Shown: piece after piece, positions 4,764-36,065 of the stretch
Position numbering within the stretch: position 1 is the first letter of the stretch
Layout of the letters: every line of letters begins with the position of its first letter
From: Candidatus Portnoybacteria bacterium RBG_13_40_8
GTDB lineage: Bacteria; Patescibacteriota; Minisyncoccia; RBG-13-40-8-A
Assembly (NCBI GenBank): GCA_001819435.1
Contig: MHMT01000019.1
Location: forward strand, 1-36,885
Length of the DNA stretch: 36,885 bases
Direction of reading: 5' to 3'
Made by a program: the position numbers and the translations under genes
Notes under the pieces: generated by a model
What the model saw: only the letters and a program-made list of their open reading frames with translations
What the model was told of the DNA's origin: nothing
The model's database searches: none

Positions 4764-4979
4764 TTAAATTACCATTCTAATAACAGCACTTACTATGAAA
4801 ATCACGCTTAAAACGATGGAAGCAATGAAAACAAATTTCTCTGCTCCGCGTTTTTTGAAATAGACTCCTCCCTCTCCGCCAAAAGTTCCGGAAAGACCAG
4901 CACCTCTTTGCTGAAAGAGGATGGTGATTACGAGCAATCCACCAATAACAATTTGAACAATATTTAGAATGTTTTCCAT
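4764..4979 (-). CDS. secG: Preprotein translocase subunit SecG
   Basis: A 71-residue protein with two membrane helices (about residues 5-22 and 48-68) joined by the conserved loop FQQRGAGLSGTFGGEGG. This is the SecG signature, and SecG assists SecYE in protein export. The length is normal. No Shine-Dalgarno is visible before the ATG. The end of the inverted-repeat element 4981-5118 sits one base upstream of the ATG, and that element carries the likely promoter. Confidence 0.93.
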   Translation of the reverse strand: MENILNIVQIVIGGLLVITILFQQRGAGLSGTFGGEGGVYFKKRGAEKFVFIASIVLSVIFIVSAVIRMVI

Positions 4980-4980
4980 A

Positions 4981-5118
4981 CCCAGTGCTACAACTTCGAT
5001 TTTTATACTGAGTTCATCTAAGTTGTAGATTATACATCAAAAAATGTTTGTTTATCTATTTATTATGTCACAATACTACATATGTGCCGCTCTGCGGCAT
5101 CAAAGTTGTAGCACTGGG
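4981..5118. repeat. 138-bp inverted-repeat element carrying the secG promoter
   Basis: Ends are 20-bp inverted repeats (19/20 matching) beginning CCCAGTGCTACAAC. A perfect 16-bp arm is at 4981-4996 and 5103-5118. The interior has no gene but contains a small hairpin TGCCGCTCTGCGGCA and, on the minus strand, a TATAAT (complement of 5029-5034). From that box the transcript would run through the left arm into secG. It fills almost the whole gap between secG and the next gene. A related short hairpin is at 5732-5764. Confidence 0.75.
5029..5034 (-). promoter_or_regulatory. -10 box of the secG operon, inside the repeat
   Basis: TATAAT on the minus strand, about 50 bp upstream of the secG ATG. No good -35 is seen at the standard distance. 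The expected 5' leader (about 40 nt) consists largely of one arm of the inverted repeat. Confidence 0.5.
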
Positions 5119-5124
5119 CATATT

Positions 5125-5493
5125 TTATAATGCGGGTTTTTTCTTTTTGAATAATCCCAATATGACTCCATTTATAATTGAGATTATGATTGAACCAAGT
5201 AGATAACCAAACAAACTGGTAATCTGTAGTGCTTGGACGAACCAGTCAACACCAAAAAGTATTACCGCATTAATTACTATTATGAAAAGTCCCAATGTTA
5301 TAAATATAAGGGGGGCGGTAATAATTTTCAGAACCGGTCTGATTATTAAATTAGCAACAGCTAAGATTGCGCCGACAATTAAATAGTCAATCCAATCGCC
5401 GGTAAATTTTATATCATTTATAAAATAGGCGGCGGCAAAAATACCTACGGCATTAGCTAATATTTGTAAAATGAGTTTAAGAAACCAGCGCAT
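5125..5493 (-). CDS. Four-helix membrane protein (PF04020 'phage holin family IV'/YvlD-like)
   Basis: A 122-residue integral membrane protein with four predicted helices (about residues 4-24, 34-55, 61-82 and 92-115) and a KKKK C terminus. The pattern LxNxVxxxxAAYF...ANLIIRPVLKIITAPLIFITLGLF is typical of the PF04020 family, seen in many bacteria including CPR. Despite the database name it is a chromosomal protein of unknown role and no phage genes are nearby. It is followed on the same strand by the secG operon but separated from it by the inverted-repeat element. Confidence 0.8.
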   Translation of the reverse strand: MRWFLKLILQILANAVGIFAAAYFINDIKFTGDWIDYLIVGAILAVANLIIRPVLKIITAPLIFITLGLFIIVINAVILFGVDWFVQALQITSLFGYLLGSIIISIINGVILGLFKKKKPAL

Positions 5494-5502
5494 ATTATTT
5501 TT

Positions 5503-5555
5503 ACCCTGTTAAATGTCGCCTACGGCGACCCCCGCTTCGCGGGATTTAACGGGGT
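5503..5555. repeat. Cruciform-like repeat with ACCC...GGGT ends
   Basis: Outer arms ACCCTGTTAAAT and ATTTAACGGGGT enclose two inner hairpins, GTCGCCTACGGCGAC and CCCGCTTCGCGGG. It would fold as a three-way junction. It overlaps the stop codon of the small gene at 5546-5704 and lies just upstream of the PF04020 start. Confidence 0.65.
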
Positions 5556-5704
5556 GAATTTTTTAATAATTTTTTAAGCTGAAAAACTCGTTTTCCCGAT
5601 ATTTTCATTTTTGGTTTTCTTTTTTTGTCCCGCTTTTCAATTTTAGTCTTGAAGTCTTCTGGTATTTCCGAGTGTTCCTCTTTGGTTTCAATCATATTAT
5701 TCAT
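5546..5704 (-). CDS. Small basic hypothetical protein (52 aa)
   Basis: A 53-codon frame starting MNNMIETKEEHSEIPEDF. After an acidic N-terminal third it becomes strongly basic (KIEKRDKKRKPKMKISGKR) and ends LKNSPR. It lies directly upstream of the PF04020 gene on the same strand. No Shine-Dalgarno is seen. I do not recognise a family. Support is its position in an otherwise empty gap, its biased composition and the lack of an alternative explanation. The stop codon falls inside a palindromic repeat, so the C terminus may have been altered by that insertion. Confidence 0.45.
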   Translation of the reverse strand: MNNMIETKEEHSEIPEDFKTKIEKRDKKRKPKMKISGKRVFQLKKLLKNSPR

Positions 5705-5731
5705 AATAAACCCATTTTAATGATTTTACAA

Positions 5732-5764
5732 GCCCAGTACCACAACGAAATTGTGGTGCTGGGC
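5732..5764. repeat. 14-bp perfect-type hairpin related to the 4981-5118 ends
   Basis: GCCCAGTACCACAA and TTGTGGTGCTGGGC pair with one G/T wobble around a 5-nt loop. The arm resembles CCCAGTGCTACAAC at 4981. It separates divergent genes, so it is a solo REP-like unit and not a terminator with a T run. Confidence 0.65.
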
Positions 5765-5789
5765 AAGCCTCTTATGTTAAAATATAGAT

Positions 5790-6788
5790 ATGATGACACA
5801 GATGAATTTTCTTGAAAAATCAATTTTAGCCACAATTGTTTATTATGATATCTTGGACTATCCCTTGACTGGTTTTGAGGTTTATAAATATTTATTAAAT
5901 CCTTTGTATGTTGTTGCCCAGACAGAAGTCGTTCAAGATTTTCAATTAGAACCATTCGGAGAGGTTTCTCTTTTGGATGTTTTAAAATACCTAAAAAGCA
6001 GTCAACTTCAGAAATTTATTGACGAGAAAAACGGATTTTATTTTTTGAAGAACAGAAGAAATTTATACGAACAAAGAATAGAACGCCAGAAAATTGCCAG
6101 TCCTCGCTGGAAGAAAGCTTATAAAGTAATAAAAGTCCTGCAAGTTTGTCCGTTCGTAAGAATGATAGGCGTTTGTAATAGTTTGGCCATTAATAATTCA
6201 AGAAAAGAAGCGGATATTGATTTTTTCATAATTATAAGAAAAGGCAGGATTTGGTCCACTCGTTTTTGGATTACTTTTTTGGTCTGGCTAATGGGGGAGT
6301 GGCGTCATAAAAAAATTGTCAATAAAATATGTTTAAGTTTTTATATCGGTGACGATGCTTTAAGTCTCGAGCCGATTGCCCTGAAGCCTTACGATATTTA
6401 TTTATTTCACTGGATTGCCCAGATAAAACCGATTTATTACGAAAATCAAATATATAGAGATTTCATTCTGAAAAATCTGTGGGTAAAAAATTATTTAATA
6501 AATTTCGGGAAAATTTTCAACTATTACCATCCGGAGTTTAAAAAAAATAAATTCCCGGCTATTATCAAAAGAATTTTAGAGAAAATTTTAAATGGTTGGT
6601 TCGGAAAATTAATAGAGGGATTATTCAGATTTATACAGAAAAAAAGAATTGCCCATAAAATGATTTCTCACGATATTCCGACAGCGGTTGTAGTTTCTGA
6701 TAAAATGCTGAAATTTCACGAAAACGATAAAAGAGAATTTTTTCAAAGGACATTTATTGAGAATTTTAAAAATATTTTATCCAGTTAA
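5790..6788 (+). CDS. Nucleotidyltransferase-fold protein, substrate unknown
   Basis: A 332-residue protein. Residues about 1-110 look like a helical, possibly winged-helix, domain (ILDYPLTGFEVYKYLL). Then comes a polymerase-beta type nucleotidyltransferase core, GVCNSLAINNSRKEADIDFFIII, with the DID metal-binding pair at 142-144. The usual GS of the motif is replaced by CNS here. A hydrophobic stretch WSTRFWITFLVWLMG follows, then a basic C-terminal half. Such proteins are common in Parcubacteria, but I know of no defined substrate. The start is one of three close ATGs (5790, 5793, 5802). It is followed by its own short gap and the groES promoter. Confidence 0.6.
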   Translation: MMTQMNFLEKSILATIVYYDILDYPLTGFEVYKYLLNPLYVVAQTEVVQDFQLEPFGEVSLLDVLKYLKSSQLQKFIDEKNGFYFLKNRRNLYEQRIERQKIASPRWKKAYKVIKVLQVCPFVRMIGVCNSLAINNSRKEADIDFFIIIRKGRIWSTRFWITFLVWLMGEWRHKKIVNKICLSFYIGDDALSLEPIALKPYDIYLFHWIAQIKPIYYENQIYRDFILKNLWVKNYLINFGKIFNYYHPEFKKNKFPAIIKRILEKILNGWFGKLIEGLFRFIQKKRIAHKMISHDIPTAVVVSDKMLKFHENDKREFFQRTFIENFKNILSS

Positions 6789-6801
6789 CAGGCGAAGACT
6801 A

Positions 6802-6829
6802 TTGACTTTAAATAAAAATTGTTTAGAAT
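6802..6829 (+). promoter_or_regulatory. groESL promoter
   Basis: TTGACT (6802-6807), 16-bp spacer, TAGAAT (6824-6829). This is the only good vegetative promoter between the upstream gene and groES. No CIRCE operator is present. Confidence 0.65.
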
Positions 6830-6852
6830 TAATAATTACCTAATTATTAATT
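6827..6852. promoter_or_regulatory. Perfect 12-bp palindrome overlapping the groESL start site
   Basis: AATTAATAATTA-CC-TAATTATTAATT is a perfect inverted repeat with a 2-nt spacer, beginning inside the -10 box. It ends 10 nt before the groES ATG. The position suggests an operator for a regulator of the chaperonin operon. It is AT-only, so chance is possible. Confidence 0.45.
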
Positions 6853-6862
6853 TTTTAAACTT

Positions 6863-8849
<1,987 letters not shown>

Positions 8850-27224: not shown

Positions 27225-28487
27225 TTATAATCTGTGATTCTCTTTTAAATATTTTTCAATGCGTTCATCGCCAAAATCATAATTGAAAGCCAAACTAATT
27301 TCTTTAATCATATCTTTCAATATAGACAATCTATTTTCTTTAAACTCTTGCAGGGTAATTATTTTTATTATTTCAAGCGTGTCCTGATGAGAAATATGCA
27401 CATTATCACTCCAAAACCATTCGCTTTGGGGTTTTTTGACTTGAAGTTTAAAAATATCATTAAGTATAAATTTTATTTTCAATAACCCCCAAATACCTAT
27501 CTTATCATAAAATCTTTCTGCCACTTCTAAAAATAAATCGAGGTGAGCAATAATATTATAAAACCAAATAGTATGCTCAGCATTTTTTTCGGGCTTTAAG
27601 TCCGAATCATTTTTTTCCGATTCCCATCCAAAAATTTCTTGAAACAGAAATAATCCTAATGTATTAAATTCATAATAATAAGGTCTACATCCGCCATCTC
27701 TTACGCTTAATTTGTAGCTTACAACGCTTTGTTGTGTTGTTATTGGTTCTCGGTTAAAGCTTGGAAACGAACCAAGGGCACCAAAATAGTCGTGTATCCA
27801 TAATTTTGAATCATTACAAAGATTTTTTAGCTCTCCGACACCAATTAGTGGTTCTTTTGGAAAAAGAGGAGAAATTGAAATAATGCCCTGACCCTTGGGA
27901 ACTGGGATGTCTTTATATCCTTCTTCCAAAAAGCCGTTCTTATATAAACTTTGCAATCTTTTTATTGCGATTTCATATATTTGCTCTCTTAATTCTTCAG
28001 ATTTTTTTCTTTTGTTCAGAAGCCACTCTATCTGCTCCAAGGTAGCAATTTCTTCTTGCTTGTTTCTATTGTCTGTTCTTATGTAGATAAGTTTTTTATT
28101 GTCTATGGCGTGCGGGGCTTCGTGGCTTTGTTGCACCCTAATGACAATGATGGCTTTTTCTTCATCATTGTCATTGAAAGCAATAATCCCAATTTCTGGG
28201 AAAATTGGGGGGCTAATGTTTTCTAAAATTATGTTGATAACTTTTAAATCAAGGCCCCTTTCAAATGATGCGCCTTTTATTGGCAGTTTTGGTTTGCCTT
28301 CGTCATCTTCTTCAATTCCGATAATTACAACCCCGCCGGACGTATTGGCAAATGCACTTATTATTTTTGCTAAATCCTTGGGGAAGGCTTCTTTATAATC
28401 CAAATTAAAGCCTTCTTTTATGCCTTTTTCACAAAAAGCTTGTATGTCTTCAAGCTTTAGTTCATTTATGGGTTTCGTAAATATCAT
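27225..28487 (-). CDS. AlbA_2 (Schlafen-type) domain protein in a restriction island
   Basis: A 420-residue protein. The N-terminal ~150 residues are the AlbA_2/divergent AAA domain: GFNLDYKEAFPKDLAKIISAFANTSGGVVIIGIEEDDEGKPK, then HEAPHAIDNKKLIYIRTDNRNKQE. AlbA_2 proteins bind nucleic acids and are frequent in defence islands. The C-terminal 250 residues match nothing I recognise. It overlaps vsr by 4 bp and is last in the methyltransferase-endonuclease-vsr operon. A role as an extra defence component is an inference from this context. Confidence 0.82.
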   Translation of the reverse strand: MIFTKPINELKLEDIQAFCEKGIKEGFNLDYKEAFPKDLAKIISAFANTSGGVVIIGIEEDDEGKPKLPIKGASFERGLDLKVINIILENISPPIFPEIGIIAFNDNDEEKAIIVIRVQQSHEAPHAIDNKKLIYIRTDNRNKQEEIATLEQIEWLLNKRKKSEELREQIYEIAIKRLQSLYKNGFLEEGYKDIPVPKGQGIISISPLFPKEPLIGVGELKNLCNDSKLWIHDYFGALGSFPSFNREPITTQQSVVSYKLSVRDGGCRPYYYEFNTLGLFLFQEIFGWESEKNDSDLKPEKNAEHTIWFYNIIAHLDLFLEVAERFYDKIGIWGLLKIKFILNDIFKLQVKKPQSEWFWSDNVHISHQDTLEIIKIITLQEFKENRLSILKDMIKEISLAFNYDFGDERIEKYLKENHRL

Positions 28488-28912
28488 AATATAGAATTCT
28501 CCAAATAATGTTTTATTTTTTTAATTATTGTTGTCGGATTTTCTTTCAATTTGTGTTCCCAAAACCGTAAAACTTTCCATCCTTTTGTTTTTAAAACGGC
28601 GTTTATCTTTTTATCTCTGGCTATATTGCGTTTAATTTTACCGAGCCAATAATCCTTGGGTAGCCGTTTTTTCAGTTTATTAAAGTTATATCCGTGCCAA
28701 AAATCGCCGTCTAAAAATATTGCAATCCTTTCCTTAACAAATGCCACATCTGGTTTTCCCAGTATCCGGCTATAATGTTTTCTATACCTATAACCCTTTG
28801 GGTATAGTTCCGAACTCAAAAGCTCCAAAAAACCAATCTCAAGTTTTGTGTTGCGAGACCTTATAAGCGACATTATTTCGCTTCTTTTTTCTTTTGAAAA
28901 TTTATCCGCCAT
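28484..28912 (-). CDS. vsr: Very short patch repair endonuclease
   Basis: A 142-residue Vsr-type nickase that repairs T:G mismatches made by deamination of 5-methylcytosine. Motifs: RSEIMSLIRSRNTKLEIGFLELL, YRYRKHYSRILGKPDVAFVKERIAIFLDGDFWHGYNF (catalytic Asp in the PDVAF strand and the DFWHG loop), and DKKINAVLKTKGWKVLRFWEHKL. The usual GCFWHG is GDFWHG here, so a zinc-ligand cysteine may be missing. It is in an operon with a C5 methyltransferase, the expected partner. Confidence 0.93.
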   Translation of the reverse strand: MADKFSKEKRSEIMSLIRSRNTKLEIGFLELLSSELYPKGYRYRKHYSRILGKPDVAFVKERIAIFLDGDFWHGYNFNKLKKRLPKDYWLGKIKRNIARDKKINAVLKTKGWKVLRFWEHKLKENPTTIIKKIKHYLENSIL

Positions 28913-28926
28913 TCTACTTATATCGG

Positions 28927-30027
28927 CTATAAGCCATACCCCCTAATCAGTTCTTTTAATTTCGTTTTATGTATGGTTTTTAATTCCGTATCATTTTCAA
29001 CTAACTCTATATACTCGTTGAAAAAACCCTTTAGGTCTGATATTAGACGAAAATAGTATTTTAACGAATTAATAAGACCATTAACTATTAACTGGCAACC
29101 GTGAGCTTTTTTAATTTTCAAAATCAATCCCTCAATTTCCTTTTCGTCTTTTTCCAATACGCCCATATAAGAAAGTATGTAATACCGTTCCGGATTAAAC
29201 TTGATTATTTTTTCATAAGCAATCCTCGCAATGTTGATGTCAATCGGCTTATCCAGCTTAATTTCTACAGTTTCAAATAACTGCCCCTTTTTCATAATTT
29301 GAATGTCGCCAGCACTCTTTGATGTTTTATCAGATGCGGTGTGGCTTCCCAACGGAGCGAGCTTGCAGTTCTTATACCTATTCATTTCAGAAGTCAGTAT
29401 TTTGTATATTGCGTAAAAGGCTAACACGGGGAGCTTTGAACCGCCGTGAGTGCCGTATTTTGCCGTAAAGTGTTTTTCCAGCAACGACACTAAATTAGAA
29501 ATTATGACCTTGTCGCCCCTTTTGATTTTTTTAATTTCTACGTGATTCTTTTCCTTAAATAAGATGGCACTGTTAAGTATGAGTCTTAGTAAGTTCTCGG
29601 CGATTAAACTATTTTTTTGAAAAGCACCCACTACCCTTAAAAAGGCTTCTTTCATACCCTTACCCGAAATCTCTCCCTCGTAGCTCATAGTATACGGATA
29701 AGGTTGTTCCAAGCTTCTGGTAAGCCATCCGCTCTCTGCCATAGAAAGCAAGCCCAATTCTTTTAGCGTCGGAGTTATGTACTTGGCGTCTATCGTTCTG
29801 GCTGAAAACCCCCCCTTCATCTTGCTTTGAAAATATCTGATATCCTGTTTGGGTTCCAAAAGCTTATGTACTGTTAGGGTTATTAAAACGGTATATACGC
29901 CCTTATTTCTATCAATGTTATCGGTTATATTTTCAATATAAGACATTAAATCCTCAGGTATATTATCAATATCCGATATATCAAACGATTTCTTATAAGT
30001 TTCTAATAATTTTTCTTTGTGGTTCAT
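28927..30027 (-). CDS. Type II restriction endonuclease (PD-(D/E)XK; SacI-like family suspected)
   Basis: A 366-residue protein next to a C5 methyltransferase (4 bp after its stop), which fixes its role as the cutting partner. A nuclease-type core is visible as SAGDIQIMKKGQLFETVEIKLDKPID (D, then E-x-K, near residues 240-262). The middle has SARTIDAKYITPTLKELG and MAESGWLTRSLEQPYPY, which I associate with the SacI-type family; this is from memory and uncertain. Recognition site unknown. There is no frameshift. Confidence 0.78.
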   Translation of the reverse strand: MNHKEKLLETYKKSFDISDIDNIPEDLMSYIENITDNIDRNKGVYTVLITLTVHKLLEPKQDIRYFQSKMKGGFSARTIDAKYITPTLKELGLLSMAESGWLTRSLEQPYPYTMSYEGEISGKGMKEAFLRVVGAFQKNSLIAENLLRLILNSAILFKEKNHVEIKKIKRGDKVIISNLVSLLEKHFTAKYGTHGGSKLPVLAFYAIYKILTSEMNRYKNCKLAPLGSHTASDKTSKSAGDIQIMKKGQLFETVEIKLDKPIDINIARIAYEKIIKFNPERYYILSYMGVLEKDEKEIEGLILKIKKAHGCQLIVNGLINSLKYYFRLISDLKGFFNEYIELVENDTELKTIHKTKLKELIRGYGL

Positions 30028-30031
30028 ATTT

Positions 30032-31021
30032 TTATTTCAAAAATTGATTTTTAATTTGATATGCCAACTCTGCGACCATTGGAACGACAACAGAGTTGCC
30101 AATTTGCTTATATAGGTTTCCGTTGCGACTATATTTTTTGAATTCTTTAGGAAATCCCATTAGCCTGAAGCATTCCTCAATCGTTAATTTTCTTACTTTA
30201 TTATCGTGTAACACAAAAAATCTGCCAGCGGTTTCTTGAGACGGTAATGTTGGATGGACTCCTTCCGAAGAATAGATACGATTTGGCTGTTTGTGAACTC
30301 GGGAAAGATGTATTGTATTTGGTCTCGTTCCATTCTCGCGAATTTTTTTGTTTCTATAGCCAGCAAAAATCAATCCCGATGGTTGACGTTTAATGTTTTT
30401 CAAGAGAGTGTATTCATTGAGTTGTAAATACTCAAATTTGCCTTTTTTCTCTAATATCTTTTTTAATGATACGGGTCTTTTTTTGTTTATTTTAGAAAAG
30501 TCAAATTTCTTCTTTTTGTGTCCAATAATGATAATCCTTTCACGGTTTTGTGCAACGCCGAAATCTTTTGCATTTAGTATGTCCCAGCTTACTTTGTATC
30601 CTATTTTTTCCAGATTGTTAATTATTATGGACAAAGTCTTCTTATCGTCGTGATATTTTAGATGCTTTACGTTCTCAAGAAATATAACATCTGGTTTTTT
30701 TGCCTTCGCTATGCGTAATATTTCAAAAAATAATGTTCCTCTCGTATCGTTAAAACCCCTCTGCCTTCCACATATGCTAAAAGCTTGGCAGGGAAATCCG
30801 GCAGTTAGGATGCTGTGTGCGGGAATTTCTTCTGACTTTATCTTGGTTATATCTCCTCTTGGAAACTCGTTAAAATTTAAGCGATAAGTGAGCTGACACT
30901 CTCTATCAATTTCAGAACTGAAAACACACTTGTATCCAGCTTTTTCAAAGCCCAATCGTATTCCGCCAATTCCAGCAAACAAATCTATAAAAGCGAACTT
31001 CTTTGGGAATTTTTTAATCAT
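30032..31021 (-). CDS. DNA (cytosine-5)-methyltransferase
   Basis: A 329-residue C5 methyltransferase that protects host DNA. Motif I is DLFAGIGG (13-20), motif IV GFPCQAFS with catalytic C78, motif VI ENV (116-118), motif VIII QNRERIIIIG (159-168), and motif X QIGNSVVVP near the C terminus. The target-recognition region lies between VIII and IX. It is first in the minus-strand operon with the endonuclease, vsr and AlbA_2 genes. The promoter would lie in the 112-bp gap shared with the divergent winged-helix gene. Confidence 0.96.
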   Translation of the reverse strand: MIKKFPKKFAFIDLFAGIGGIRLGFEKAGYKCVFSSEIDRECQLTYRLNFNEFPRGDITKIKSEEIPAHSILTAGFPCQAFSICGRQRGFNDTRGTLFFEILRIAKAKKPDVIFLENVKHLKYHDDKKTLSIIINNLEKIGYKVSWDILNAKDFGVAQNRERIIIIGHKKKKFDFSKINKKRPVSLKKILEKKGKFEYLQLNEYTLLKNIKRQPSGLIFAGYRNKKIRENGTRPNTIHLSRVHKQPNRIYSSEGVHPTLPSQETAGRFFVLHDNKVRKLTIEECFRLMGFPKEFKKYSRNGNLYKQIGNSVVVPMVAELAYQIKNQFLK

Positions 31022-32539: not shown

Positions 32540-32665
32540 ACCAATATAGTTAATAATTATAGTTAACAATATAGAATTAACTTATTATATTTAATATCAA
32601 GTTAACCTAATAAGTTTCCTATAGGGTAAAAGGTTAAATATAGATTGTTAAATATAACTAAACTT
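32540..32665. repeat. AT-rich iteron-like region with GTTAAC motifs
   Basis: No gene. Repeated units of the type ATAGTTAA / GTTAAC / GGTTAAATATAG occur at about 32547, 32561, 32598, 32630 and 32647 in both orientations. It could be an operator array or a replication/transfer origin of the element, or simply low-complexity AT-rich sequence. Confidence 0.4.
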
Positions 32666-33217
32666 ATGACAACAGAAAAACAAATAGAGGCGAACCGAGA
32701 AAACGCTAAACTTGGTGGTGTTAAAACCGAGGAAGGCAAGGCGATAAGCAAATACAACGCCTTAAAACACGGCATATTAAGACACGCCTTAACTGAATAT
32801 GAAGATGATTTATATCGGGATTTCTTTAGGGAATTAGTTGAACAATTAGCTCCCGTAGGGTTTTTAGAGACGATGCTTGTTGAGCGGATAGCATTGTGTT
32901 ATTTGCGTCTATTCCGTATCGTAAAAGTGGAAAAAGAATATATATTGTCCAAATTATACTCTCCCGTTATAGTAGACCCTATGACCAGTATTTTACCACC
33001 AGAAATGGAATTAAAGGTTCTTGAAAAAGGATATGTTCCTACGGTAAGTATAAATGCATTAGGACAACTCAATGAGACAACTGCTCGCTATGATACAACC
33101 GTTGAACGAAGTTTGTATAGAACCCTTCACGAATTACAAAGACTACAATCGGCTCATTCAAACGATAAACCGCCCCTGCCTATGGCTATAGATGTTGATA
33201 TAAACACCAATAAATAA
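32666..33217 (+). CDS. Mobile-element protein with N-terminal KxxxNRENAKLGG..T.EGK motif
   Basis: A 183-residue protein starting at ATG 32666. The N terminus TEKQIEANRENAKLGGVKTEEGKAISKYNALKHGI is a motif common in phage and mobile-element proteins, where Asn-Ala-Xaa-Lys-His-Gly follows a short basic segment. A helical middle (FLETMLVERIALCYLRLFRIVKVEKEYI) is also typical. Its biochemical role is unknown; some relatives sit where a small terminase or DNA-binding protein would. There is no Shine-Dalgarno. Confidence 0.6.
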   Translation: MTTEKQIEANRENAKLGGVKTEEGKAISKYNALKHGILRHALTEYEDDLYRDFFRELVEQLAPVGFLETMLVERIALCYLRLFRIVKVEKEYILSKLYSPVIVDPMTSILPPEMELKVLEKGYVPTVSINALGQLNETTARYDTTVERSLYRTLHELQRLQSAHSNDKPPLPMAIDVDINTNK

Positions 33218-33580: not shown

Positions 33581-33634
33581 TTTGTCACTTAAAGTTATCT
33601 TTTCAAACTTGAATTAGAATGGTATGATTAAATT

Positions 33635-33721
33635 GGATACAGCAAACTATAATTTTCGGAAATAAAAAGGGTAGTCTGCTTCAGTTTCCGAAAGGATGCT
33701 GTATCCAGCGGGCTACCCTTT
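33635..33721 (+). ncRNA. Three-stem pseudoknot RNA element before the recombinase
   Basis: Three perfect pairings: GGATACAGCA (33635-33644) with TGCTGTATCC (33697-33706); TTTCGGAAA (33654-33662) with TTTCCGAAA (33685-33693); AAAGGGTAG (33666-33674) with CTACCCTTT (33713-33721). The order A-B-C-B'-A'-C' means C lies in the loop of the A/B hairpin and pairs outside it, an H-type pseudoknot. It ends 5 nt before the recombinase GTG, which has no Shine-Dalgarno. It does not match a riboswitch or ribozyme class that I know. It could control translation, or act as DNA, such as an attachment site. Confidence 0.7.
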
Positions 33722-33726
33722 ATATT

Positions 33727-35406
33727 GTGGAAATAACAAATCAAAAAATTAAATATTTCCTTTATGCCAGAAAGTCATCAGAGAGCGAAGACCGACAAAT
33801 CCAATCTATTGATGACCAAGTTGACAGGCTGAAAAAATTAGCCGCAGATTTGAATTTGAGCATTAAAAAAATTTATACTGAAGCAAAATCGGCAAAAAAA
33901 CCAAATAATCGTTCCATCTTTGACGAGATGATACAGCAGATTGAAAGCGGCGAAGCCGATGGCATTTTATGCTGGCACTTAAACAGATTAACACGCAATC
34001 CAATTGATAGTGGTAAATTGGGTTGGCTCTTGCAACAAGGAATAATCAAATCCATTCAAACCATAGAACGACAATATCTACCCGATGATAATGTGTTGTT
34101 ATTTAGCGTTGAGACTGGTCAAGCCAATCAGTATATTCTTGATTTGAGTCGTGATACTAAACGAGGGCTTCTCAAAAAACTAAACGCTGGTTGGCAAAAT
34201 GGCATAGCAAGGTTGGGTTATATCAATGACAAAGAAAATAAAATTATCATCAAAGACCCAGAGCGGTTCAATCTTGTTAGAAAGATGTGGGATTTAATGC
34301 TTACGGGAAATTACACTCCGCCAAAGATTTTAGACATTGCCAACAGAGAGTGGGGCTTCAAGACAAGAAAATTCAAGAGAATGGGCGGCAACCCATTATC
34401 AAGAAGCGGCATTTATAATATTTTTACAAGTTTGTTTTATGCGGGGGTTATTGAAAGTAAGGGAGTTCAATATGATGGCAAGCACGAAAGGATGATTACA
34501 CTTGAAGAATATGACCGAGTGCAAATGCTTCTTGGCAGAAAAGGAAAGCCAAGGCCCAAAAGTAGAATTTTTGCTTTTACAGGCTTAATGAGATGCGGGG
34601 AGTGCGGATGCCTAATAACTGCCGAGGCCAAGAATCAAATCATTTGTTCTGAATGTAAGCTGAAGTTTTCTTATGAAAATAAAACAAAGTGTCCAAAATG
34701 CGGGACATTGATTGAAAAAATGAAAAACCCCACTATTCTGAATTATATATACTATCACTGCACCAAAAAAAGAAACAAAAATTGCACTCAGGGCGGGGTT
34801 GAAGTAAAAGAATTAGAAAAACAAATTGATGAGTATTTAGCAAGCATTCAAATCAACCAAAAGTATTTAGATTGGGCCATAAATCATTTACGAAGAACCC
34901 ACAAATTAGAGGTCGTGACAAGGGATGAAATTATAAAATCGCAGCAAGGGACTTATAACGATATGGTTAATAAATTAGATAAACTCTTGGAATTAAGATT
35001 AAAAGAAGAAATAACAGAAGAAGAATTCAAAGAAAAGAAAACGTCGCTCATTAAAGAAAAAGAACGAATTCAGGAACTATTAAAAGATTCTGACCACAGA
35101 CAGAATCAATGGCTTGAACTATCCGAAAAGACGTTTAATTTCGCCCGCTACGCACGTTTCTGGTTCGCTGAGGGCGACTTACAACGCAAAAGGGATATAT
35201 TATCCACATTGGGTCAGAACCTAATTTTAGATGGCAAAAAACTACGAATTCAACTTCAAGAGCCATTTTCTATTATTCAGAAAGGATTGCAACCAGTTTT
35301 GCAAAAACAAGAAAGGTTAGAACCCGCAAAAGATGCGAAAAATGGCTTCAAAAATGAAAAATCCACCCAAAATTTGGATGGATTTCACGCCTTGCTCCGC
35401 AGGTAG
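33727..35406 (+). CDS. Large serine recombinase (site-specific integrase)
   Basis: A 559-residue serine recombinase that inserts or excises the element. The resolvase domain opens with YARKSSESEDRQ (nucleophile S17) and contains CWHLNRLTRNPID (82-94). The recombinase domain is about 155-280. The zinc ribbon is unusual: between the outer CGEC (C290, C293) and C345/C353 there is an inserted second four-cysteine ribbon (C307, C310, C322, C325). A coiled coil lies at about 410-455. The start is GTG 33727, directly after the pseudoknot. The last ~15 codons are the terminator and 3' end of the opposing tRNA-Asn gene, and the stop TAG lies within the tRNA. Confidence 0.93.
   Translation: MEITNQKIKYFLYARKSSESEDRQIQSIDDQVDRLKKLAADLNLSIKKIYTEAKSAKKPNNRSIFDEMIQQIESGEADGILCWHLNRLTRNPIDSGKLGWLLQQGIIKSIQTIERQYLPDDNVLLFSVETGQANQYILDLSRDTKRGLLKKLNAGWQNGIARLGYINDKENKIIIKDPERFNLVRKMWDLMLTGNYTPPKILDIANREWGFKTRKFKRMGGNPLSRSGIYNIFTSLFYAGVIESKGVQYDGKHERMITLEEYDRVQMLLGRKGKPRPKSRIFAFTGLMRCGECGCLITAEAKNQIICSECKLKFSYENKTKCPKCGTLIEKMKNPTILNYIYYHCTKKRNKNCTQGGVEVKELEKQIDEYLASIQINQKYLDWAINHLRRTHKLEVVTRDEIIKSQQGTYNDMVNKLDKLLELRLKEEITEEEFKEKKTSLIKEKERIQELLKDSDHRQNQWLELSEKTFNFARYARFWFAEGDLQRKRDILSTLGQNLILDGKKLRIQLQEPFSIIQKGLQPVLQKQERLEPAKDAKNGFKNEKSTQNLDGFHALLRR
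35356..35383 (-). terminator. Terminator of the tRNA-Asn gene, inside the recombinase 3' end
   Basis: On the minus strand ATCCATCC pairs with GGGTGGAT (one G/U), followed by TTTTCATTTTT. It is also coding sequence for the recombinase on the plus strand. Confidence 0.75.
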
Positions 35407-35432
35407 GACTCGAACCTACAACCAACGCCTTA

Positions 35433-35959
35433 CACAAAATCCCAGAATTACTCCTAGGGGTGGACTATATCTTTGCCCTGTTCCGAATGGAATTTAGGCA
35501 TCCCGGTATCTAGTCTCTACGGTGCCTCCGATAATTATCGGAGTTCCCACGGTATTGCCCCACAGTTGCGGGGTTTCACCGTTATCCCAGGATTCTTCAC
35601 TCCTAAATTTCTTTAGAAGGCTGCGTAATGCCGGCCTCAATTTCTCTATGGCAATTGGCGCAAACTAATATACATTTATCTAATTCTTTCTTCGTTCTTT
35701 CCCAAGAACGAGTATATCCTTTGTCGCCAATACCAAAATCTTTTTTGCCATTAATATGATGAAGGTCTAATGCGCCAGGACATTTATTGTATCCACAAAT
35801 TTGGCACTTTCCACCTTTATATTCAATGGCCATCAATTTAATCTTCCGCCGTCTTTTAGCAACGGCTTTGATTAAATATTCTCTGCGGTCGGCATATTTT
35901 CTTTTTTCCTTCATCAATTTAATTATAACTTTTTAGATGAAGAAAATAAATGTTCTCTC
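35433..35959 (-). other. Group I intron in tRNA-Asn
   Basis: A 527-nt intron on the minus strand. Exon 1 ends in U and the intron ends in G, as group I rules require. The conserved core is clear: AGAGACTAGATAC (R, complement of about 35506-35517) and AAGATATAGTCC (S, complement of 35462-35473), whose GACTA/TAGTC form P7, the guanosine site. ATAACGGTGAAA and GGGCAATACCGTGG give P4, CCCCGC..GTGGGG gives P5, and CTCCGATAATTATCGGAG extends P6. A candidate guide CGCAG (complement of 35621-35625) pairs with exon CUGU|G as P1 with a U-G pair. That would place the HNH gene in the P1 loop. Confidence 0.9.
35603..35917 (-). CDS. HNH homing endonuclease in the tRNA-Asn intron
   Basis: A 104-residue HNH nuclease. 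CQICGYNKCPGALDLHHINGKKDFGIGDKG carries the first zinc pair and the catalytic HH, and CILVCANCHREIEAGI carries the second zinc pair and terminal His. A basic N terminus (KRRRKIKL) probably contacts DNA. It would cut intron-less tRNA-Asn alleles and drive homing. The start is TTG 35917 followed at once by an ATG; no ribosome site is visible. The 3' end of the gene overlaps the candidate P1 guide, so coding and RNA function may share bases. Confidence 0.9.
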   Translation of the reverse strand: MMKEKRKYADRREYLIKAVAKRRRKIKLMAIEYKGGKCQICGYNKCPGALDLHHINGKKDFGIGDKGYTRSWERTKKELDKCILVCANCHREIEAGITQPSKEI

Positions 35960-36065
35960 ACAGGGCGCTGCTCTACCATTGAGCTACTGCGGAATAATTT
36001 AAAGTATATCTTAAAATTTTAAAAAAATCAAGTAAATCTTCCCATCGTGCAAGATAGCTTAATTT

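Follow-up and report, generated by a model that had tools for sequence, protein, structure and literature searches.

Promoter, pseudoknotted RNA, terminator and gene follow one another in type III toxin–antitoxin systems (ToxI–ToxN), a layout like that of the leader described here from the Candidate Phyla Radiation (CPR). The HMP-PP riboswitch (thiS motif) merges a compact pseudoknot with an intrinsic terminator directly before its gene and is off by default (PMC6478431). A SAM-II leader of metZ is predicted to terminate and thus to yield a small RNA (PMC9373788), and in KplE1 the integrase protein binds an attL site that overlaps the promoter of its own gene, intS (PMC2951348). How CPR bacteria control their genes, and how the mobile elements in them silence their integrases, is a matter on which little is known. 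Here, we describe a three-helix pseudoknot directly before a large serine recombinase gene in contig MHMT01000019.1 of Candidatus Portnoybacteria bacterium RBG_13_40_8 (assembly GCA_001819435.1); the whole stretch of 36,885 nucleotides (nt) that was analysed is called the window below. Judged from sequence, we show that the pseudoknot is conserved, that it is placed at a predicted transcript start, that it ends at a T-tract, that it lies before the first gene and which classes of gene follow it. With moderate confidence we propose that it is a cis-acting, default-off leader in which the helix formed by arms C and C' serves as a terminator-like gate. That the leader is off by default, that termination is the main step and that a protein, an RNA or a small molecule releases it is what we infer from this anatomy.

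Results

Between positions 33634 and 33721, pairing read in the window sequence gives three perfect arm pairs in the order A-B-C-B'-A'-C' (Table 1). A preliminary description, made from the sequence of this locus, had already reported such a pseudoknot before the recombinase; its arms are all present, and helix A comprises 11 base pairs (bp) starting at 33634. Helix B has 9 bp. Helix C has a Watson-Crick core of 9 bp (33666-33674/33713-33721), is extended through two G.U pairs to 33679/33708 for a total of 14 bp, and becomes 15 bp long if the pair 33680-33707 is taken over from A. The end of C' is followed after 5 nt by the GTG of the recombinase, with no Shine-Dalgarno (SD) sequence in between, as had also been noted. 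Beyond the arms described earlier, the leader unit contains only its promoter in addition. The earlier judgement that the arrangement is far beyond chance holds, given that the window scores 80.6 and the highest of 1065 dinucleotide shuffles, made from 71 homologous upstream regions, 61.6. The minimum-energy nested fold of the window element chooses helix C over A and B together, the two being close in energy (-33.5 vs -31.3 kcal/mol), and across all elements A plus B is usually more stable than C (62 of 73).

A DNA search of 380 Patescibacteria genomes returned one clear homolog (locus L015/L018), which lies before a recombinase 50% identical to that of the window and carries compensated changes in A, B and C; helix B is compensated to TGCGGAAAA/TTTTCCGCA in L018. 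A further DNA match (L014) falls within a methyltransferase gene and was rejected as chance. Through protein search, 71 recombinase upstream regions were gathered and scored with a finder for A-B-C-B'-A'-C' pseudoknots; 27 of them score 70-111, above all 1065 shuffles, and some others are positive by eye. Among natural tiles outside the known elements, 1 of 2381 scores 70 or more, and this tile is itself another genuine element. With weak second-strand matches (for example, L099+) excluded, the collection comprises approximately 80 elements, and the same architecture is found upstream of serine recombinase genes across Patescibacteria. Protein-based scans of collections gave no match. The nearest relatives in the family and order have recombinases without the leader. 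In one close relative (L016), the recombinase is 79% identical over the N-terminal 309 residues (59% overall) and follows a plain promoter and a short leader with no element, which makes it probable that the RNA is not needed for the enzyme as such. Another recombinase (L023), 60% identical N-terminally, has a different leader, in which one very long hairpin and then a short T-rich stretch come ahead of the start codon, perhaps a simpler gate.

Covariation was assessed in 12 elements of a larger subtype, which has an added stem D within B, using a MAFFT alignment built without structure guidance. In this alignment 88.5% of the cells are paired, rising to 95% in both helix A and helix C, and the pairs change on both sides in 7 of 9 cases for A and 7 of 11 for C. 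The covariation score is 0.371 compared with 0.185 (s.d. 0.018) for shuffled alignments and at most 0.100 when the partners are slid. One pair of C is G.U in 7 sequences and G-C in 5, an exchange that is expected of RNA and not of DNA. The four-member subfamily of the window follows the same trend, but 35 of 500 shuffles reach its covariation score; by itself a set of this size does not prove covariation, and the claim hence rests on the larger set. Aligning related upstream regions in search of compensatory changes had been proposed in the preliminary description, and such changes are found, with strong covariation in A and C. In a group of otherwise near-identical elements (L256, L257, L260, L272 and L274) the outermost A pairs vary with pairing kept, a pattern that would fit diversifying pressure on the 5' end; L256 and L257, nearly identical elsewhere, differ in the three outermost A pairs, which still pair.

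The anatomy of the leader was counted in a pooled set of 80 elements. A -10 hexamer, either perfect or with a single mismatch, is located just 5' of arm A in 66 of the 80 (29% in shuffles, at any position), and exactly 6 nt separate the two in 41 of these 66, which places the start of arm A at the predicted transcript start. In 70 of the 80 elements C' finishes with GC and a run of at least three T, a pattern seen in 22% of shuffles. A GC-rich helix with a U-tract before a gene is a feature shared with attenuators that have an intrinsic terminator, even if some of the U-tracts here are short. Of the 80 elements, 75 have a start codon no more than 70 nt further on (median 18 nt), often 2-20 nt after C' and in some cases 25-60 nt downstream. 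Only 8 of those 75 have an SD-like sequence, located in the spacer after the pseudoknot. In the group with variable outer A pairs, the first open reading frame (ORF) is a small one immediately ahead of the recombinase. Helices A, B, D and C occupy separate nucleotides and the junction between A' and C' is 0 nt in most elements, so the helices look built to coexist. In the larger subtype the 5' half of C can often pair locally instead, as part of a hairpin called E (58% vs 38% in linker shuffles).

A covariance model of the larger subtype matches in 29 of 380 genomes of the phylum and in 37 of 381 genomes of one class. Nearly all matches precede serine recombinases, some of them only 22-25% identical to that of the window, and the leader is found on the same strand before recombinases of 22-79% identity. 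It also occurs before N6/N4 DNA methylase genes (L104/L239 and L114), and the contig of L114 has it both before the methylase and before its recombinase. L117 carries a less canonical leader, and in L113 one is located some distance before a helix-turn-helix gene. The exact pattern of the larger subtype was found in four stretches among 84,980 species genomes, three of them CPR. In viral contigs a degenerate pattern gave, on rescoring, false positives only and three specific patterns gave no match, and no element was found in phage and plasmid collections by the tests used. Within what was searched, the RNA hence looks confined to CPR. On the L114 contig, a 745-aa reverse transcriptase gene (RVT_1; 4774-7008, minus strand) is divergent from the leader-bearing DNA methylase.

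The preliminary description could assign the element to no known class and proposed a search of Rfam. Rfam 15 gives no match to the element in the window, in the segment 33200-36200 (up to E=5) or in 20 element loci (up to E=0.5), and membership in any known RNA family is not supported. A relation to the T-box was rejected, as Rfam gave no match and a conserved UGGN bulge was not seen. A type III toxin-antitoxin RNA is likewise not supported, given that the window element is single copy, with no tandem repeat of the pseudoknot unit, and that its gene is a serine recombinase and not ToxN-like. Literature searches, for which most subscription papers and bioRxiv were outside coverage, found no report of this RNA.

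In the window recombinase the Resolvase domain is matched at E=1e-16, and the Recombinase and zinc-ribbon matches are weaker. Its stop codon (35404-35406) lies within an opposite-strand tRNA gene, in the 3' part, and a group I intron interrupts that gene (E=1.7e-10; 45.9 bits in Rfam, just below the gathering score). The anticodon loop reads as tRNA-Asn GUU, and ARAGORN calls the gene Thr. A recombinase stop codon within an opposite-strand tRNA gene is seen in approximately 25 of 30 loci and involves many different tRNAs, which suggests that the integration junction lies at the 3' end of the gene. The antisense tRNA genes at loci L016-L044 and in the window are His, Trp, Gln, Ser, Asp, Arg, Met, Tyr and Asn. 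Related recombinases thus seem to target different tRNAs, with the target, or a copy of it, supplying the final codons of the gene. A search of the window that allowed up to three mismatches returned no further copy of the tRNA 3' end.

Table 1 Features of the leader, the recombinase gene and its probable target in the window
Feature	Position	Strand	Remarks
Promoter	33600-33628	+	Predicted; -35 TTTTCA (33600-33605), 17-nt spacer, extended -10 TG-N-TATGAT (TATGAT 33623-33628)
Helix A, 5' arm	33634-33644	+	TGGATACAGCA; begins at predicted transcription start; A covaries in homologs
Helix B, 5' arm	33654-33662	+	TTTCGGAAA
Helix C, 5' arm	33666-33679	+	AAAGGGTAG, running on to TCTGC; inside loop of B
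Helix B, 3' arm	33685-33693	+	TTTCCGAAA
Helix A, 3' arm	33697-33707	+	TGCTGTATCCA; touches extended C' (0-nt spacer)
Helix C, 3' arm	33708-33721	+	GCGGG-CTACCCTTT; ends in T-tract ahead of start codon; terminator-like
Large serine recombinase	33727-35406	+	GTG start; Resolvase, Recombinase and zinc ribbon domains; stop inside tRNA gene
tRNA gene split by group I intron	35395-35993	-	HNH-like ORF 35603-35917; probable integration target

Three other observations concern the surroundings of the leader. In several elements, the gene one or two places before the leader encodes a protein with a GGVKT-EGK...KHGL-like motif and no Pfam match; it is found at 32645-33217 of the window and also in L097, L101 and L115. 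The cargo at 27225-31021 (minus strand) resembles a restriction-modification island: Pfam matches a C5 cytosine methylase there, and reading of the sequence alone suggests a Vsr-like endonuclease, a possible restriction enzyme and an AlbA_2-like protein. Positions 33750-33801 (minus strand), which are antisense to the start of the recombinase, weakly resemble a hammerhead ribozyme (21 bits, E=0.35), probably by chance.

Discussion

In the reading that we propose, a CPR mobile element carries an integrase operon, and this RNA forms the 5' leader of the operon. Transcription would begin at arm A, and the long A-B hairpin, together with stem D in the larger subtype, would fold first and hold arm C in its loop. 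C' would emerge right after A', pair with C, stack on A and close the pseudoknot, which puts the closing helix at the T-tract immediately ahead of the start codon. By default, C:C' would then halt RNA polymerase or, if it did not, deny ribosomes access to the start codon, and the integrase, or the DNA methyltransferase in some elements, would be made only when something blocks C:C' pairing. We favour termination of transcription because the T-tract follows C', and ribosome exclusion is possible because the knot abuts start codons without an SD.

Several observations weigh against this proposal. In classical attenuators the alternative strands overlap; here hairpin E, which would compete for C, shows no more than moderate enrichment, confined to the larger subtype, with no enrichment in short elements such as that of the window. 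The T-tract is short in several elements, the window included (CCCTTTATATT), and a simple terminator scan found no terminator, partly since the scan admits short loops only. Moreover, three elements (L107, L259 and L275) do not have a recombinase directly behind them.

The strongest alternative, which we consider unlikely, is a translational gate on a full-length mRNA, in which the knot before an SD-less start codon blocks the ribosome or, when remodelled, recruits it; an analogue is the repZ leader of plasmid ColIb-P9, which is under the control of a pseudoknot. A ribosome bound at the many start codons close behind C' would clash with helix C, and the scarcity of SD-like sequences fits as well. 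However, the T-tract after C' is conserved beyond composition, some start codons are as far as 25-60 nt away, and the few SDs that occur are in the spacer behind the knot. Of the possibilities raised in the preliminary description, a structured regulatory RNA is supported by homologs and compensation, and its translational switch persists as a rival that fits less well than a terminator-like gate.

It is improbable that the leader is passive and does no switching, with its stable 5' end serving for mRNA protection or shielding the gene against transcription from upstream. Helix A at the predicted +1 would indeed bury the 5' end, but a simple hairpin would suffice for this, and a covarying three-helix knot with a mostly 0-nt A'/C' junction exceeds the need. 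Slightly less probable still is a product acting in trans, an RNA of approximately 70-135 nt ending at the T-tract that would act together with the recombinase or elsewhere, perhaps as a cofactor or guide. Promoter, structure and terminator would make a complete small-RNA unit, and in L107 and L268 the element is 350-480 nt from the recombinase, with others before other genes. Against this, 75 of the 80 elements are directly before a gene, and the close relative L016 does without the element. A guide role in particular was rejected, given that the longest matches of elements to their own target tRNA region are no longer than those to other loci (6.9 vs 7.1 nt, either strand). Finally, a role as DNA, with the inverted repeats beside the recombinase gene serving as its attachment site (as the preliminary description had also considered) or as an operator, is very improbable and, for the attachment site, was rejected, because the putative junction is at the opposite, 3' end of the gene, changes in the arms are compensated with G.U kept in C, and the same leader stands before methyltransferase genes.

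A conserved leader present in roughly 8-10% of the sampled genomes for one subtype alone offers a directly testable candidate switch. If C:C' does terminate transcription, a pseudoknot would be an unusual way to construct a terminator, and the releasing signal would show what wakes CPR mobile elements. More tentatively, CPR integrative elements may possess a class of RNA switch of their own, in which a single pseudoknot architecture, whose terminator helix is the helix closing the knot, gates both integrase and methyltransferase within one element and a single signal, such as entry into a new cell, releases them together. Integration and self-protection would then be released at the same time.

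Among known systems, the IscB/TnpB omega RNA and the IS110 bridge RNA are likewise structured RNAs beside the gene of a mobile-element enzyme, but the CPR leader belongs with another enzyme family, has no detected complementarity to the target and is dispensable in L016. KplE1 intS resembles the CPR elements in that a mobile-element integrase beside a tRNA gene is held down in expression; here, in contrast, the att junction is apparently at the far end of the gene, and it is apparently the leader RNA that exerts control. Autoregulation through attL would not be available in this arrangement, which may explain why control is exerted through a leader. ToxI consists of tandem repeats of approximately 36 nt before a ribonuclease, whereas the CPR leader is a single knot of 69-137 nt before a recombinase. 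SAM-II and other H-type pseudoknot riboswitches share with it a pseudoknot at the 5' end of bacterial mRNAs and differ in that the CPR leader has the order A-B-C-B'-A'-C', with A' abutting C', C helices of approximately 10-20 bp, non-metabolic genes and no Rfam match. In working principle, the nearest described analogue is the HMP-PP riboswitch, which is embedded in its terminator. That riboswitch controls thiamin genes and the CPR leader, a stranger to Rfam, precedes serine recombinase and DNA methylase genes. A single hairpin makes up the terminator of the HMP-PP riboswitch, with the pseudoknot as the alternative ON state, whereas in the CPR leader the terminator-like helix is itself pseudoknotted.
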